Positions 14,068 through 34,220 of a stretch of 43,256 bases of DNA are shown here, in pieces. The notes beneath the pieces were generated by a model. That model saw only the letters and a list, made by a program, of their open reading frames with translations, did not search any database and had not been told where the DNA came from. Numbering within the stretch: position 1 is the stretch's first letter; each line of letters starts with the position of its first letter. The position numbers and the translations under genes were made by a program. Origin of the DNA: an uncultured Bacilli bacterium. Its GTDB lineage: Bacteria; Bacillota_I; Bacilli_A; RF39; UBA660. Where the stretch lies: assembly GCA_947626535.1 (NCBI GenBank), contig CANQSO010000004.1, forward strand, positions 1 through 43,256, written 5' to 3'.

Positions 14068-15636
14068 CTAACGTTTAAATTTAAATGTTCTTTCTAATGT
14101 TAACCATTTTTGATCTTTTTCACTTAATGATAATGGTGTTCCATCTTCTAAAGTATAATTACTAGCTACGGCATTACCAGGATAATTACCAACAACTTCT
14201 GGCCAAGCTATATTAATATTTGGATCATTCCAAGCAAGACCACTTTCATCACCAGGATGATAAAAATCTGTACATTTATAGCAAAATTCTGCAGTATCAC
14301 TTAAAACTAGAAAACCATGGGCAAAACCTTCAGGAATATAAAATTGTTTTTTATTTTCGGCCGATAATATAACTCCATACCATTTACCATAAGTATTACT
14401 ATCAGCTCTTAAATCTACAGCAACATCAAAGACTTTACCATTTATTACTCTTACAAGTTTTCCTTGCGGATATTCTTTTTGAAAATGTAACCCTCTTAGA
14501 ACACCTTTTTTAGAACAACTTTGATTATCTTGAACAAAATTCATATTCAAGCCAAAACTTGCTAAATCTCTAGCATTATAGGTTTCCATAAAATATCCCC
14601 TATCATCACCATGAACAGTAGGCATTATTTCATATAATCCTTCAATTGGACATTTACTAACACTAATTTGACTCATTTTATCACTTTCCTTTTCTTTTTT
14701 TATATTTAATTCTTTTAAATACCTTTTAACGGCGTCTTGCCAATTTGGTAAAGGTTCAAAACCTTTTTCTTGTAATTTACTTGTATCTAAACGACTATTT
14801 TTAGGTCTTTTAGCTAAAGTAGTTCCATATTCTTCAGTAGTAACTGGCGTAACTTTAGTGTTTATTCCAGCTTCTTGATATAAATACTTAGTTAAATCAT
14901 ACCAAGAAATATATTCTCCTTCATTAGTAGCATGATATATTCCGTATTCTTCCTTTTCGGACATATCAAGCAAAAGACGGGCTAAATCTTTTGTATAAGT
15001 AGGTCTTCCAATTTGGTCATTAACAACTTTTACTTCATCATGATTTTTAGAAACATTTATCATTGTCTTTAAAAAATTTTTACCATTTATACCAAAAACC
15101 CAAGATATACGAACAATATAATATTTATCTAAACATTGTTTTACCGCATCTTCGCCTAAAGCTTTACTTACTCCATAATAATTTAAAGGAAAAGTAGTTG
15201 CATCATCAGGATGCCAAGGCTTATTTTCTAAACCATCAAAGACATAATCAGTACTTAAATATATCATTTTAGCATCAAGATCATGACAAATTTTTGCTAA
15301 ATTTTTAGTGCAACTATAATTACTATCAAATACTTCTTTTTTATTTTCTTCTTTTTCAGCATCATCAACTTTAGTCCAAGCTGCACAATGAATAATAACA
15401 TCAGGATTTATTTCTTTTACTTTTTCTTCTAATGAAGTAAAATTTAATAAATCTAGTTTTAAGTATGAGTCTAAATTATACTCATCTTTTCTTCCACAGC
15501 CTACAACTTCATAACCTCTTTTTAAACACTCTTTATAAACATCGTATCCTAATTGTCCAGTAACCCCAGTAACTAAAACTTTCATTTTCGACTCCTTTGT
15601 AGATTTTACTAGTTTTAATAAATATAATTTTATCAT
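14068..15636 (-). CDS. Fused dTDP-4-dehydrorhamnose reductase (RfbD) - dTDP-4-dehydrorhamnose 3,5-epimerase (RfbC)
   Basis: N-terminal MKVLVTGVTGQLGYDV...YLSTDYVFDG...YGVSKALGE; C-terminal HGDDRGYFMETYN...GVLRGLHFQKEYPQGKLVRVINGKVFDVAVDLR...FYIPEGFAHGFLVLSD. True start is probably the internal MKVLVTG. Confidence 0.9.
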   Translation of the reverse strand: MIKLYLLKLVKSTKESKMKVLVTGVTGQLGYDVYKECLKRGYEVVGCGRKDEYNLDSYLKLDLLNFTSLEEKVKEINPDVIIHCAAWTKVDDAEKEENKKEVFDSNYSCTKNLAKICHDLDAKMIYLSTDYVFDGLENKPWHPDDATTFPLNYYGVSKALGEDAVKQCLDKYYIVRISWVFGINGKNFLKTMINVSKNHDEVKVVNDQIGRPTYTKDLARLLLDMSEKEEYGIYHATNEGEYISWYDLTKYLYQEAGINTKVTPVTTEEYGTTLAKRPKNSRLDTSKLQEKGFEPLPNWQDAVKRYLKELNIKKEKESDKMSQISVSKCPIEGLYEIMPTVHGDDRGYFMETYNARDLASFGLNMNFVQDNQSCSKKGVLRGLHFQKEYPQGKLVRVINGKVFDVAVDLRADSNTYGKWYGVILSAENKKQFYIPEGFAHGFLVLSDTAEFCYKCTDFYHPGDESGLAWNDPNINIAWPEVVGNYPGNAVASNYTLEDGTPLSLSEKDQKWLTLERTFKFKR

Positions 15637-25986: not shown

Positions 25987-26967
25987 TTAACTACTTTTTT
26001 CAATAGAGCGAATTTTTTCATAATAATTATTAATTAATTGATACCAATTTTGATAATTAACATCATACCGATGGTCAACCAAATTATAATTATCTTTTAT
26101 ATATTTTCCAACTTGAGTAGTAGTTTTTCTTGCCCCCAAATAATTTAAATGATCTCCAGCATCAACTGTGTCAGCTTTCCAATCTATATTTGCAATATTA
26201 TCAATATTTAAATCAAAATAAGATACATTATTTTTTTTAGCAAGTAATTCTATAGCATTATGCTTAGCATAAGTCCATTCAATATAACTTGGTGTACTTA
26301 CAAATAATACTTCTATTCCTCTTTTTTGGCATTCATTAATTATTTTATTTATATAAAAAACATTTTCAATGTTAATATCAAATATTTTATCAGTACTTTG
26401 CTTTTCATAATATTTATTAACAGACTTAATATTATTTCTAATTAAATATCCTTTATATTTATCACTATAGGTATATGATTTATCACTTAATAATAAATCT
26501 TTCTTAGTTAAATGTTTCCAACGATTATGATATTTAAATATTGCCAAAAAATTTTCTAATTTATTATTTAAAATTTCATTATATTTCATTTTGCGAAAAA
26601 ATAAATTACAATCTAAAACTACCATTTTAAGATTTTGATTTTTCATTGTTTTCTTTAAGAAATCCCAAGATTCAAATAATTTTTGACCTGCTGTACTTGT
26701 TACATATGAAGCTATACCATACTCATTAAAAAGTTGTAATGGTGAAATACTACTATATAGCTCTGAATCACCTAAAAATAATATATCAATTGTATTTTTA
26801 GGTTCTCCTAATATTCCATTGGCTTCTAAAGATCTTATATCATAACTTTCTAAATTATCTTTCGGTTCAAATACTAATGATAAGAAGGCTAACATTCCTC
26901 CTAATATTGCAATAAAAACTATTGGTTTAATAATATTTTTCATTTTAGCCTCCTTAAAAATCTGCAT
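25987..26967 (-). CDS. Membrane-anchored SGNH/GDSL-like protein (DltD/AlgX-like position)
   Basis: N-terminal TM; IDILFLGDSELYSSISPLQLFNEYG; C-terminal DAGDHLNYLGARKTT. Overlaps the MBOAT gene. Confidence 0.75.
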   Translation of the reverse strand: MQIFKEAKMKNIIKPIVFIAILGGMLAFLSLVFEPKDNLESYDIRSLEANGILGEPKNTIDILFLGDSELYSSISPLQLFNEYGIASYVTSTAGQKLFESWDFLKKTMKNQNLKMVVLDCNLFFRKMKYNEILNNKLENFLAIFKYHNRWKHLTKKDLLLSDKSYTYSDKYKGYLIRNNIKSVNKYYEKQSTDKIFDINIENVFYINKIINECQKRGIEVLFVSTPSYIEWTYAKHNAIELLAKKNNVSYFDLNIDNIANIDWKADTVDAGDHLNYLGARKTTTQVGKYIKDNYNLVDHRYDVNYQNWYQLINNYYEKIRSIEKSS

Positions 26968-28543
26968 ACATTGGTTCTACGGGAATATATAATCCGCCAT
27001 AAGCTCCAAAAATAATAACATATAAAACTAAAGCATAATAAATCATCCAACGAATATATATCGGTTTTTTAGCAATTTTTTCTCTAATATTAATTCCTTT
27101 TTCTTTTATAATGCTTATAATAAAAACAATTAATAAAGTTATTCCAATTATAATTAATTCATAATTAAATAATTTTAAAGCATTTAAAGTTTTCCAATTT
27201 AAACTACTTATGTTAAATTCAGTAAAGATTTTTTTAAACATAACTAAACCAATTTTTAAACTTTGCGCCCTAAAGAAAAGTTCCCCAAAAATAACAAAAA
27301 TAGTTGTTTTAATAATTCTTATAGCTTTTATAAAAAATTGTTCAGGATTTATATGACATATTTCGTAAAAATTATTTATTGCTGGATTAAAAATATTAGC
27401 CATTAATATAAGAGCAAAATGATAAAAGCCAAAGAAAACATAATGATAAGCTGCCCCGTGCCATAAACCATTACATAACCAAACTGTACCTAAAGCAATT
27501 GTTCCAGCAACTAAAGGGCCAAAATGATTACCTATTTTCTTTCGTAAAGAATTAGTTATTTTTCTAGACATTTTGCTTAAAGAAATAGGATAAAAGATAT
27601 AGTCTTTAAACCATGTTCCTAAAGTAATATGCCATCTACTCCAAAATTCTGAAATATTTTTTGAAAAAAATGGTTGACGAAAATTCTCTGGTAATTTTAT
27701 TCCAAATATTTCACCAGTACCAATAACAATATCAATTATACCTGAAAAATCCATATATAACTGAATCGTATATAAAATGGCTCCAAGCAAAAGAATTACT
27801 CCACCATATTTGTCATAACCGTTAAAAATTAATTTAACAGGCGTATTTAATCGGTCCGCTATAACTAATTTTTTTAATAAACCATAACATATTCTTTGAA
27901 TACCAAAACACATATTATGATAAGTTATTTTCTTTCCTTCATATAAATTTTCAGCTGTATCTTCATATCTTGATATAGGTCCTTCCATAATTTGTGGGAA
28001 GAAAGCTAAAAATAAAGCTAATTTAAATAAGTTATTATCGGCTTTTATCTTACCTCGATAAACATCAACTAAATAAGAAATTGCTGAAAAAGTATAAAAA
28101 GATATACCTATAGGCGCAACTAAATTAGATAATTTAAATTTTAAATTAATCTTAAACAAAGCTAAAAGATGATTAATATTTACACCAATAAAAGCCATAT
28201 ATTTAGTTAAAGTTATCATAATCATTAAAATTAAAATACCTAAAAATAAAATGCCTTTTCTTTGTTTTAAATATTTTAACTTAATTTGTTTTTTTTCTTC
28301 TTTATCTAAATCTTTAATTTGTTCTTTTTCTTCTTTTTTATTGGCATCCAACCATATGCCAAAATGATGAATACATAATGTTGCTAATAATAAATAGACA
28401 AGTAGTTTACCACTTAAAGTATATATAAAAATATAACTAGCTATTAATAAAATAAATGGTCTTTTTTTCTTGCCAACAAGTTGATAAATTAACATTACCA
28501 ATGGCAGAAATAATATCAAGAAAGTTAATTCAAAATATTGCAT
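26954..28543 (-). CDS. MBOAT family O-acyltransferase (DltB/AlgI-like)
   Basis: LVAPIGISFYTFSAISYLVDVYRGKI; FFPQIMEGPISRY; NISEFWSRWHITLGTWFKDYIFYPIS; WLCNGLWHGAAYHYVFFGFYH. Confidence 0.95.
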   Translation of the reverse strand: MQYFELTFLILFLPLVMLIYQLVGKKKRPFILLIASYIFIYTLSGKLLVYLLLATLCIHHFGIWLDANKKEEKEQIKDLDKEEKKQIKLKYLKQRKGILFLGILILMIMITLTKYMAFIGVNINHLLALFKINLKFKLSNLVAPIGISFYTFSAISYLVDVYRGKIKADNNLFKLALFLAFFPQIMEGPISRYEDTAENLYEGKKITYHNMCFGIQRICYGLLKKLVIADRLNTPVKLIFNGYDKYGGVILLLGAILYTIQLYMDFSGIIDIVIGTGEIFGIKLPENFRQPFFSKNISEFWSRWHITLGTWFKDYIFYPISLSKMSRKITNSLRKKIGNHFGPLVAGTIALGTVWLCNGLWHGAAYHYVFFGFYHFALILMANIFNPAINNFYEICHINPEQFFIKAIRIIKTTIFVIFGELFFRAQSLKIGLVMFKKIFTEFNISSLNWKTLNALKLFNYELIIIGITLLIVFIISIIKEKGINIREKIAKKPIYIRWMIYYALVLYVIIFGAYGGLYIPVEPMYADF

Positions 28544-28545
28544 TT

Positions 28546-28779
28546 TTAATCTTCCTCTTGTAATTTTTCAATTAATTTTAACATATTATCTACAGAATTA
28601 AAATTAGCTGGAATAATTTCAACAGTTGGAATGACTATATCAAATTCATCTTCTAATTCAGCAACTAAAGATAAAATTGATAATGAATCTAAATAATGTT
28701 CATCAATTAAAGTATTAAGATTTTCATAATCAACCCCAGGTTTAATATTCTCTAATATTTCTAATAAATCGTTTCTCAT
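28546..28779 (-). CDS. Acyl/aminoacyl carrier protein
   Basis: YLDSLSILSLVAELEDEFDIVIP: phosphopantetheine-site DSLS and helix II. Confidence 0.9.
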   Translation of the reverse strand: MRNDLLEILENIKPGVDYENLNTLIDEHYLDSLSILSLVAELEDEFDIVIPTVEIIPANFNSVDNMLKLIEKLQEED

Positions 28780-29951
28780 AATTTTACCTCTCCTTCATAA
28801 TTGGGACAATTAATTTTATAACTATTAATGGTATCCCTTACTAATATTTTTTTATCACTTATTAATACAACTTTAGGCATATCTCTACTTAAAAATAAGG
28901 CAATACCTTCTGTTATTGAATAAGCTCCAACATTTTTAAAAATAAAAACGTCATCAATCTTTAATTTTGGTACTTCTAATTGTTTTACCAAAATATCATT
29001 TGTTGTACATAGTGAACCACATAAGTTTACTATTTCTTTATTTTTTTCTTTATTATTAATTATTTCATAATCTGGTATTTTCATAGCCATTGTTTGACCA
29101 TAGTATACTAAATGGTTTATTCCACCATCTAAGATTGCATATTTTTCTTTTTTATTTTCTTTTAAATCAATTACCTTTGTACAATAATAGCCACAACTAG
29201 CTACTAAACTTCGACCAATTTCTAAAATAATTTTTTTATCAGAAAAATATTTATTTAAAATGTCATTAACTTCTTTTAAAAAATTTACTTCATCAAATTC
29301 TTCTTTAAAATAATATATTGGCAACCCAGGACCATATTCTAATTCTGATAAAGTAATATGATAATTATTTTCTATCTTTAAAAATAATTCTTGTAAGTAT
29401 AAACATTCTTTTTCAATTCTTTTTAAGGAATGCTTTTGAGTTCCAGAAAAATATTCAATTCCAATAATATTTAAATATGAATTCTTTTCTTCAAAAATTT
29501 TATCTAATTTGCTTTCATCAATTCCAAATTGATTGCCACTTGTTATTCTAATTAAAATATCAATATTGTTTTGATAAGTATTACTTAGTTCATTTAATAA
29601 TTTAAATTGTTCATATGATTCAATAGTATATCTACCAATCTTTTTTTGACTTTTAAAAATATTATCAAATTCAAGTTTATTTTTATTAACACCTGATAAA
29701 ACTAATTTAGAAGAATCTATCTTTAATTTATCACAAATTTGATATTCACCATATGAACATACTTCAACTCGTTCTATATCATTAATTATTTCTTTAATAA
29801 CAAATGAATTAGCTTTAATAGCATAACAAATATCCATTTTTTTAAAAATTGATTTTAAATATTTAATTCGTTCTTTTATAATATTACAATCATAAATAAA
29901 AAGTGGCGTATTATACTTTTGAATAAGTTCTTGCATTTTTACCTCCTTCAA
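28776..29951 (-). CDS. Fold-type III PLP enzyme, DAP/ornithine decarboxylase-like
   Basis: TPLFIYDCNIIKERI...CYAIKANS (PLP Lys); EVCSYGEYQI; LEIGRSLVASCGYYCTKVIDLKE; NLCGSLCTTNDIL; FKNVGAYSITEG. Confidence 0.88.
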   Translation of the reverse strand: MKEVKMQELIQKYNTPLFIYDCNIIKERIKYLKSIFKKMDICYAIKANSFVIKEIINDIERVEVCSYGEYQICDKLKIDSSKLVLSGVNKNKLEFDNIFKSQKKIGRYTIESYEQFKLLNELSNTYQNNIDILIRITSGNQFGIDESKLDKIFEEKNSYLNIIGIEYFSGTQKHSLKRIEKECLYLQELFLKIENNYHITLSELEYGPGLPIYYFKEEFDEVNFLKEVNDILNKYFSDKKIILEIGRSLVASCGYYCTKVIDLKENKKEKYAILDGGINHLVYYGQTMAMKIPDYEIINNKEKNKEIVNLCGSLCTTNDILVKQLEVPKLKIDDVFIFKNVGAYSITEGIALFLSRDMPKVVLISDKKILVRDTINSYKINCPNYEGEVKL

Positions 29952-31473
29952 TCATTTCCAACAAATATTTTCGATCAATTTTACCATTTTTATTTAATTT
30001 AAATTCTTCAAGTTTAACAAAGTTTGTTGGTATCATATAAGGAGGAACTTTTAATTTTAATTCATTAATTATATCCTCTTTAGTAACATCGCCTATATAA
30101 AAATTATACAGTCGCGATTTTTTTTCATAAAAAATTGTTACTGTTCTTTTAATATTTTTAATTTTAGATATTTCACGATCAATTTCCTCTAATTCAATTC
30201 GATGACCCATATATTTAATTTGAAAATCTTTTCTTCCTAAGAAAACTAAATTCCCATCTTCATCATATTTTCCTAAATCACCGGTTCGATAGATTAATTC
30301 ATGATATTTATTATTTAAAGGATTTTGAATAAATGAGGTAGCCGTTTGAGAAGGAAAATTATAATAACCAAGGGCTAGGCATGAACCACTGACACATATT
30401 TCTCCAATAGTTGTACCCCCGACCCTAGGAGATATTAGTTCATTAGTTTCCACATTAAGAAGAAATACTCTTTCATTTTTAAAAGGCTTACCAATTGGAA
30501 TATATTCATCATAAGTTTTTTGACGGTCAATAATATGATATGTACAATTACAAGTTATTTCTGTTGGTCCATAAACATTAACAAATGTTGCATCTGGTAA
30601 TTTATCCATCCACATTTTTAAATGTTTTAAAGGCATTACTTCACCACTAAAAATAATTTTATTAACAGTTTTAGGAACTTTATATTCTAAGCCATGAAAA
30701 GTTGTAATTAAGCATAACGCTGATACAGCCCATATCATCGTTGTAATATTATTAGCAACAATGTAATCTAATAAATTAGTAGGCATTGAAAAATATTTTT
30801 TTGGAACAATTACTAAAGTTGCTCCAACAAAAAAAGTTGAATAAATATCTTTAACAGATACATCAAAATCAAAAGGAGCTTGATTAGCAATAATATCTTT
30901 TTCATTAATATTAAATTCATTAGTAAAAACATTAATAAAATCAATTATTGAACGATGACCAACTACTACTCCTTTAGGAACACCAGTTGAACCTGAAGTA
31001 AAATTAATATAAACAGGGTCTAAATCTATTTTTTGTTCTTTAATCGCATTAAGTGTTTCATTATCTATTTTGCCAACTAATAAATCATCAACTAATAAAA
31101 TTGTACAATCTTCAAATATTTCTTTACATTGTTGATAATTTTCTTCATTAGTTATGACAATTTTACTTTCTAAAACATTAATAATTTGATTTATTCTACT
31201 TTTAGGAAATTCTAAATTAACTAAACTATAGCAACCACCTGCATATAAAATACCAAAGAAAGTTTCTAAAGTTTTTATTCCTTTATCCATATAAACCATT
31301 ATTGGTTCATTTATTGAAATTTGACTAATTAAATTTGTTGCTATTACTTTAGATGTTTTTAATAAATCTTGATAAGTTATTTTTTCGCCTTCCTCAATAA
31401 CGGCAATTTTTTTAGCATATTTTTCACAATTTAATTCTAAATAATCTGTAACAAACTTCATTTTACTCACCAC
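29911..31473 (-). CDS. AMP-forming amino acid adenylation domain protein (DltA-like)
   Basis: INFTSGSTGVPKGVVVGHRSI; NVYGPTEITCNCTYHII; YRTGDLGKYDEDGNLVFLGRKDFQIKYMGHRIELEEI; LNKNGKIDRK. True start probably internal MKFVTDYLE. Confidence 0.93.
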   Translation of the reverse strand: MVSKMKFVTDYLELNCEKYAKKIAVIEEGEKITYQDLLKTSKVIATNLISQISINEPIMVYMDKGIKTLETFFGILYAGGCYSLVNLEFPKSRINQIINVLESKIVITNEENYQQCKEIFEDCTILLVDDLLVGKIDNETLNAIKEQKIDLDPVYINFTSGSTGVPKGVVVGHRSIIDFINVFTNEFNINEKDIIANQAPFDFDVSVKDIYSTFFVGATLVIVPKKYFSMPTNLLDYIVANNITTMIWAVSALCLITTFHGLEYKVPKTVNKIIFSGEVMPLKHLKMWMDKLPDATFVNVYGPTEITCNCTYHIIDRQKTYDEYIPIGKPFKNERVFLLNVETNELISPRVGGTTIGEICVSGSCLALGYYNFPSQTATSFIQNPLNNKYHELIYRTGDLGKYDEDGNLVFLGRKDFQIKYMGHRIELEEIDREISKIKNIKRTVTIFYEKKSRLYNFYIGDVTKEDIINELKLKVPPYMIPTNFVKLEEFKLNKNGKIDRKYLLEMIEGGKNARTYSKV

Positions 31474-31589
31474 TTATTAACTTGCTAAAAATAATATAGC
31501 ACAAATATAATTTCTGTTCAAGTTTTGGCAAAAATTAATTTTACATTTATTTAAGAGAATGTTAAACTTAAAACAAGTGGTGAATAAAA

Positions 31590-31946
31590 ATGATGAATGT
31601 AGGAATTGATTTAGTTAAAATAGAAAATATAAATAAGTTAAAAAAACTAGAAAAAGTTTTTACTAAAAATGAATTAGAATACATATCTAAGCATAATTCT
31701 TTAGAAACAATTGCTGGATTATATGCTTCTAAAGAAGCAATGCTTAAATCTTTAAAATTAGGAATTAGTTCTTATGAACTGTTAGACATTGAAGTAAGAC
31801 ATGATGAAAATAATGCTCCTTATTTAACTTTTTATGGCAATTTAAAAAAGAAAATTGTCAATGAACAACTTTCTTTTAGTCTTTCTATCTCTCATGATGG
31901 AAAATATACTATAGCAATTGTTATAAATTATAAAAATAATATTTAA
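31590..31946 (+). CDS. acpS: Holo-ACP synthase (4'-phosphopantetheinyl transferase, AcpS type)
   Basis: VGIDLVKIENI; YASKEAMLKSLKLGI; SLSISHDGKYTIAIVI. Confidence 0.93.
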   Translation: MMNVGIDLVKIENINKLKKLEKVFTKNELEYISKHNSLETIAGLYASKEAMLKSLKLGISSYELLDIEVRHDENNAPYLTFYGNLKKKIVNEQLSFSLSISHDGKYTIAIVINYKNNI

Positions 31947-33547: not shown

Positions 33548-33892
33548 CTATATTGCTAAAATAATTACGCCGGTAATAATAATAAATACACCAACTATTT
33601 TTTTTAAACTTATTTTTTCCTTTAAAAATTGATAAGAAATAATTAAAGTCCAAATATAAGTTATTGAAGTCATAGGTAAAACAAGAGAATAATCTAAATA
33701 TTTTAATAAATAAATATTTAATACTGCTGATAATAAATATAAGAAGCCTCCTAAATAAAGATTATAATTTTTAATAAGGTCTAATATTTTTTCACTCTTT
33801 GAAGCCTTTTTTAGAAAAAATGAAGCTATCGCACCAATTAAAGTCATTACAATTAGTAGTAGATAGTATTTAATCATTATCTCCACCTCCAA
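33548..33892 (-). CDS. EamA/SMR-type 4-TM transporter (ArnE/F-like subunit)
   Basis: YLLLIVMTLIGAIASFFLKKASKS...LPMTSITYIWTLIISYQFLKEKISLKKIVGVFIIITGVIIL. Confidence 0.75.
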   Translation of the reverse strand: MEVEIMIKYYLLLIVMTLIGAIASFFLKKASKSEKILDLIKNYNLYLGGFLYLLSAVLNIYLLKYLDYSLVLPMTSITYIWTLIISYQFLKEKISLKKIVGVFIIITGVIILAI

Positions 33893-34220
33893 TTAAAATG
33901 ACACCAATAATAATAATTATAATACCTATAAAATCATACCAAAATATTTGTTCTTTTAAAATTAAAGATGCTAAAATAATTGTAAAAATATAATTAGCAC
34001 TTAACATTGGTTGTAAAACCGATAAACTTCCAAATTTATATGCATAAAGCATTAATAAAGCCCCTATTCCATACAAACCAAAACCAATTATTAAATACAA
34101 AATATTATTATCAACTGATAATTTCCAAAACAATTGTCCTAAACATACACAAAAAGAAGATAATAACATTATTATTATTCCTTTTTTATTTTTTCTTAAT
34201 GATTCAATCATTAGTATCAC
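33870..34220 (-). CDS. EamA/SMR-type 4-TM transporter (second ArnE/F-like subunit)
   Basis: LGQLFWKLSVDNN...VLQPMLSANYIFTIILASLILKEQIFWYDFIGIIIIIIGVILIG; overlaps the next gene by 23 nt. Confidence 0.75.
   Translation of the reverse strand: MILMIESLRKNKKGIIIMLLSSFCVCLGQLFWKLSVDNNILYLIIGFGLYGIGALLMLYAYKFGSLSVLQPMLSANYIFTIILASLILKEQIFWYDFIGIIIIIIGVILIGGGDND

Follow-up and report, generated by a model that had tools for sequence, protein, structure and literature searches.

D-alanylation is the textbook Gram-positive route to positive envelope charge, and the AlmE/AlmF/AlmG system puts glycine onto lipid A with neither a membrane-bound O-acyltransferase (MBOAT) nor a pyridoxal phosphate (PLP) enzyme. 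Its adenylation enzyme AlmE is DltA-like and likewise serves envelope decoration (PMC11253843). Systems of the dltABCD(X) type combine such an enzyme and a carrier protein with a DltB-related MBOAT and an SGNH-like protein, and the aminoacyl donor is carrier-bound. The small protein DltX bears the same FXYXXF motif as the C-terminus of PatA, which auto-acylates the Tyr of this motif, and MBOAT/SGNH pathways other than Dlt—such as PatA/PatB-type O-acetylation pairs, which use acetyl-CoA—work without a carrier protein (PMC12148441). Here, we describe a five-gene cassette from a 43,256-nucleotide stretch of an uncultured Bacilli bacterium (assembly GCA_947626535.1, contig CANQSO010000004.1; henceforth the window) that, as read from its sequence, pairs a carrier-bound donor with a fused MBOAT shuttle and includes a PLP decarboxylase as an integral part.

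The cassette runs on the minus strand in the order adenylation enzyme (A), fold-III PLP enzyme, acyl carrier protein (ACP), MBOAT and SGNH-like protein (Table 1), and each gene overlaps the next or stands apart from it by a few to a few tens of bases. The block and the junctions listed in the original prediction (29951/29911, 28779/28776, 28546/28543, 26967/26954) match the coordinates of the open reading frames (ORFs), and its description of a Dlt-like, carrier-dependent acylation cassette with a built-in PLP enzyme agrees with both the protein families and the five-gene association. We scanned GTDB species genomes with an alignment of the PLP enzyme and kept the best 80 of 241 relatives; a contig scan with the single PLP sequence as query had given no match. 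All five genes are present at 77 of these 80 loci and the remaining 3 are cut by contig ends, so the five-gene order is not due to chance. The order itself is kept at 74 of the 80, and the cassette PLP gene was seen without its partners only at contig ends. The comparison with dltABCD that the original prediction had proposed returned the five-gene block at these loci, and a DltA match over the cut-off in none of 25 cassette genomes. The loci come from Bacilli, Clostridia (Lachnospiraceae, Oscillospiraceae, Eubacterium, Acetobacterium and Catenibacillus) and one Eggerthellaceae, altogether at least 80 species of mostly gut and rumen bacteria.

Within the host's family (193 genomes), close PLP orthologues occur in 13 genomes including the source, and more than 90% of the sister genomes are without one. 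The orthologues of the 12 relatives are 50% to 59% identical to the window enzyme, and all 12 loci show the order A-PLP-ACP-MBOAT-SGNH, broken by a contig end in one case; four further genomes of the family hold distant PLP relatives only (26% to 33%) in different gene neighborhoods. Across the phylum, the PLP family was found in 15 of 392 genomes, and all five genes are present at each of the 9 distant loci that were opened, several of them in permuted order (MBOAT-SGNH-A-PLP-ACP). That the genes stay together even where their order is permuted is good evidence for a joint function. Over 73 loci, pairwise distances correlate between A and PLP (0.84) and between PLP and MBOAT (0.86), with a range of 0.82 to 0.86 among A, PLP and MBOAT, and shared ancestry contributes to these values. 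We found no description of this gene combination in the openly accessible literature, with subscription papers outside the search. The proposed tie of the cassette to a capsule locus did not hold up as a general rule: relatives carry it in unrelated surroundings, and most copies stand alone. In some lineages, an OmpR-type response regulator and a histidine kinase lie beside the cassette (our loci L143:12017-14027, L145:11004-13263 and about 14 further ones), which is consistent with envelope-stress control. In two loci (L108 and L112), the PLP gene and the carrier gene flank an extra MBOAT-SGNH pair, perhaps a sign of a single donor serving two acceptors.

Table 1. Cassette features and their positions in the window
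Feature	Position	Strand	Length	Family match, motifs
Adenylation enzyme	29911..31473	-	520 aa	TIGR01733
Fold-III PLP decarboxylase	28776..29951	-	391 aa	PF02784/PF00278
Stand-alone carrier protein (ACP)	28546..28779	-	77 aa	PF00550; phosphopantetheine Ser32 in LDSL
MBOAT acyltransferase	26954..28543	-	529 aa	PF03062; catalytic His362 in NGLWHGA
MBOAT C-terminal acyl-shuttle hexapeptide	26957..26974	-		PMYADF, Tyr526
SGNH-like transferase, N-terminal membrane anchor	25987..26967	-		Ser68 in GDS, D269...H273; assigned by motifs and position
AcpS phosphopantetheinyl transferase	31590..31946	+	118 aa	PF01648, TIGR00516

Compared to dltABCD(X), the cassette has an extra PLP enzyme, another pocket code, a fused shuttle in place of DltX and an AcpS gene of its own. 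Canonical dlt membership was rejected: the models for DltA (TIGR01734, 291 bits, cut-off 559.85), DltB (TIGR04091, 176.8 bits, cut-off 375) and DltC (NF003464, 28.7 bits, cut-off 68) all stay below their cut-offs, and an FXYXXF-bearing ORF of 20 aa or more, which could be a separate DltX, is absent from the flanking gaps. The adenylation enzyme does pass the general amino acid adenylation model (TIGR01733, 330.6 bits, cut-off 317.4), and DltB is the only solved relative of the MBOAT (88 bits). Of the DltA-C-B-D logic suggested originally, the Dlt-like gene set stands, whereas the MBOAT is not of the DltB type and carries a fused acyl-shuttle Tyr: its C-terminus reads P[IML]Y[AV]x[FY] in 78 of 79 homologues. 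An MBOAT with its own C-terminal shuttle Tyr and a putative SGNH partner is what the cassette shares with PatA/PatB-type pairs (PMC12148441), from which it differs by its carrier-bound donor. Ser32 of the carrier and His362 of the MBOAT are invariant in the alignments of homologues. The fifth protein found no match among Pfam, NCBIfam or PDB profiles; its N-terminus forms a hydrophobic anchor, and it shows a GDS Ser near that end and a late D...H, two motifs that are invariant in ten relatives. We class it as a putative SGNH-type protein by these motifs and by its gene position.

The PLP enzyme has the fold of ornithine/diaminopimelate (DAP)/arginine decarboxylases in the Pfam search, with a Schiff-base Lys (K46) and a Cys (C315 in GSLCTTND) whose GxLCxxxD motif keeps this residue near-invariant in 73 homologues. 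Its best NCBIfam match is lysA, which is what an ordinary DAP decarboxylase placed by chance in an envelope operon would give, but the score is 182 bits against a cut-off of 297.9, and the cassette copies stay below that cut-off in all 25 genomes scored. Moreover, dapB is over its cut-off in none of the 13 cassette genomes of the host's family, several cassette-bearing Clostridia carry a separate lysA-like gene, and most sister genomes are without the cassette gene, as described above. By motif alignment, the Arg (RPxxY) and Glu (CExxD) of LysA, which we take to be the residues that bind meso-DAP, correspond to V282 and T316 of the window enzyme. We consider the probability of this explanation negligible and reject it, and the distinction from lysA in a lysine pathway made in the original prediction is upheld. 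A likeness to exosortase-A-associated exopolysaccharide loci had also been pointed out, and the pairing of an AMP ligase with a PLP decarboxylase is indeed shared. However, the family scores (196 against a cut-off of 592 for TIGR03098, 155 against 478 for TIGR03099) rule out membership, and we know of no MBOAT-SGNH pair in that trio.

A Foldseek search of the PDB with a model of the PLP enzyme returned BtrK of butirosin biosynthesis (7ru7) as top match, at around 26% identity. The motifs GxLCT..D and FL[SG][RH]..P are common to the cassette enzyme, BtrK and SbnH and are not those of LysA, while the cassette enzymes are without around 15 residues of the active-site loop directly before QFG. Both BtrK and SbnH decarboxylate amino acids that bear a conjugate on the side chain: BtrK converts glutamyl-S-BtrI to gamma-aminobutyrate (GABA)-S-BtrI, and SbnH acts on citryl-diaminopropionate; K347 and H379 of SbnH sit at the distal group (PMC7857480) and, by our reading, correspond to the same two shared motifs. 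The source genome also holds a second, distant fold-III PLP decarboxylase beside a candidate gene of the PALP type (cysteine-synthase-like; L115:2300-4439, contig C5), an arrangement reminiscent of SbnA/SbnH-type pairs.

The substrate pocket of the adenylation enzyme is made up of D204, V205, K208, I247, I274, S276, V300, C308, N309 and K498 (GrsA positions 235, 236, 239, 278, 299, 301, 322, 330, 331 and 517; GrsA numbering is used below). Across the PLP cassettes, the aligned code reads D V K [ITV] [LIMF] S [LVI] C N K, with D, V, K, S, C and N invariant in 73 homologues and nine distant ones, and we know of no substrate assignment for this code (DVKxxSxCN-K). Sister cassettes without the PLP gene (A-ACP-MBOAT-SGNH; L117:5036-9035 and L125:5346-10162) show the code SMSYLALDIK without the amino-binding Asp, which suggests a non-amino (hydroxy) acid donor, and the near-DltA code is DLAVICTFAK. 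The PLP-linked pocket thus goes with the PLP gene and probably recognizes an amino group through D235 and a second carboxylate through K239, pointing to an acidic amino acid of which either carboxyl would be compatible with the pocket. In the beta-amino acid enzyme VinN, a conserved Asp serves the beta-amino group, S299 stands at position 301 and the loop is one residue shorter; in a TycA with beta-specificity, the selected change is to Val at 236 (PMC11253843). Ser301 of the window enzyme equals VinN S299, but K330/R331 of VinN are replaced by C/N in the window enzyme.

Our preferred explanation, to which we give a little less than an even chance, is that aspartate is loaded, decarboxylated on the carrier and transferred as a beta-alanyl ester to an envelope polymer. 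AcpS would arm the carrier, and the adenylation enzyme would activate and load an acidic amino acid, for which L-aspartate, reacting via its beta-carboxyl, is the likeliest choice. The PLP enzyme would then decarboxylate the carrier-bound residue in the manner of BtrK or VinO to give beta-alanyl-S-carrier; the MBOAT would carry the beta-alanyl moiety through the membrane to its own Tyr526 (PxYAxF), from where Ser68 of the SGNH protein would take it to esterify an extracytoplasmic glycan or teichoic-type polymer and thereby add positive charge. We infer this substrate, order of steps and benefit to the cell from several considerations. The product must still form a thioester, so the decarboxylase substrate needs two carboxyls, and with small-genome members that have no DAP pathway, aspartate and glutamate remain as the common candidates. 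Decarboxylation at the alpha position on the carrier in turn requires loading through the side chain. Precedent comes from BtrK, with glutamate (PMC7857480), from VinN/VinL/VinO, which take 3-methyl-aspartate, and from FlvN, which takes aspartate: the VinN/VinL/VinO and FlvN systems also consist of a stand-alone adenylation enzyme, a stand-alone carrier and a PLP decarboxylase, and load first and decarboxylate on the carrier second (PMC11284099), as we propose here. They differ in making starter units for the polyketide synthases of natural products (macrolactams) with no MBOAT or SGNH protein, and VinN has the shortened loop and other pocket residues mentioned above.

Several observations weigh against this explanation. 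In the sequence alignment, the beta13-beta14 loop of the adenylation enzyme is unshortened and of DltA-type length, which would also allow the pocket to read aspartate or glutamate through the alpha-carboxyl, and the conserved Asp of FDFD next door could neutralize K239. The tree places the PLP family in a clade of its own (support 100/98), next to neither BtrK nor LysA, and action on an acylated carrier is proposed here by analogy to BtrK. The shuttle hexapeptide starts with Pro instead of Phe in most members, with Phe first (FIY/FVY) in the distant MBOATs of L140 to L142. Finally, no AcpS-type transferase was detected in one 96% complete genome with a full cassette (G153, L018:6612-12043).

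Lys at position 239 is typical for glutamate-activating domains, and with BtrK as the closest solved structure, the literal BtrK reaction on loaded L-glutamate would decorate the polymer with GABA. We nevertheless regard this as unlikely: on chemical grounds, GABA thioesters and aryl esters readily cyclize to pyrrolidinone, the relay passes through three activated ester or thioester stages, and the cassette is without a protecting ligase. Cyclization would thus be expected of the thioester, the tyrosyl ester and the seryl ester of GABA, but not of those of beta-alanine, which is why we prefer the route from aspartate to beta-alanine. In a different order of events, the PLP enzyme would work on the free amino acid before the finished omega-amino acid is loaded by the adenylation enzyme, just as IdnL3 decarboxylates free beta-glutamate ahead of loading by IdnL1 (PMC11284099). 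The A-PLP gene order leaves the order of reactions unfixed, but an invariant Lys239 would be needless for a product without a second carboxylate and the motifs of the PLP enzyme are those of enzymes whose substrates are conjugated; such an order seems improbable to us, and loading probably precedes decarboxylation, contrary to the original prediction of a product made before loading.

The idea that the PLP enzyme is instead a racemase or epimerase, making the cassette a D-aspartate/D-glutamate (or D-alanine) version of Dlt, would fit the use of a D-amino acid by Dlt, the PLP fold shared with alanine racemase and an adenylation domain that retains D235 and the unshortened loop like enzymes for alpha-amino acids. 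Yet the Pfam match is to the decarboxylase families and not to alanine racemase, the decarboxylase Cys is near-invariant, and to our knowledge there is no racemase in this subfamily, so we hold this to be quite improbable. Among the products considered originally, an omega-amino acid hence fits best, while an amine is excluded, as the thioester needs a remaining carboxyl, and a D-amino acid is disfavored by the catalytic Cys and fold of a decarboxylase.

The AcpS gene, which the original prediction had not named, is divergent from the cassette in the window and scores above the Pfam and NCBIfam cut-offs (PF01648 47.3 bits, TIGR00516 64.4 bits); in most of the 12 family relatives, it is convergent and lies 3' of the SGNH gene. 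AcpS-type transferases are found in 10 of 11 cassette genomes of the host's family, with the cassette copy as the sole one in six, and are absent from 9 of 10 non-cassette genomes, the tenth of which holds an FkbH-type MBOAT cluster. Carrier-protein chemistry seems to arrive in this family together with such cassettes. Clusters of the FkbH type were seen at eight loci of the family (L118, L119, L120, L121, L122, L124, L126 and L127; e.g., L122:4106-9599), where MBOAT-SGNH pairs with canonical FxYxxF C-termini neighbor an FkbH-like HAD protein, MaoC or glyoxalase-type proteins, an SDR protein and often AcpS. They are apparently a second carrier-dependent route of polymer acylation, perhaps with a glyceryl or hydroxyacyl group.

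In the window, the cassette lies in a polysaccharide region with LicD, UDP-galactopyranose mutase and a sugar-phosphate transferase; a promoter and terminator scan gave no usable signal, with 101 promoter-like sites where 95 were expected. Elsewhere in the window, a single 522-aa protein (14068-15636) joins RmlD (dTDP-4-dehydrorhamnose reductase) and RmlC epimerase domains, and two neighboring half-size EamA transporter genes (33548-34220; 114 and 116 aa) resemble heterodimeric exporters of the small multidrug type.

In the most ambitious interpretation, to which we give somewhat less than an even chance, the cassette would represent an undescribed and widespread pathway by which envelope polymers are decorated with beta-alanine, using side-chain-loaded aspartate, on-carrier decarboxylation and a self-shuttling MBOAT, to form a positively charged ester of higher stability than that of D-alanine. 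The cassette would be a second, independent route of amino-acylation beside D-alanylation, with a substrate that probably undergoes its conversion on the carrier and is exported afterwards. It also breaks with the rule, as reported, by which fused-shuttle MBOAT-SGNH systems rely on acyl-CoA and have no carrier. The fixed adenylation code, together with the sister cassettes that lack the PLP gene and can serve as natural controls, makes both the substrate and the reaction order directly testable. If the product is beta-alanine, chemical reasoning suggests that its ester should withstand hydrolysis better than D-alanyl esters, and this would have consequences for the resistance of commensals to cationic peptides.

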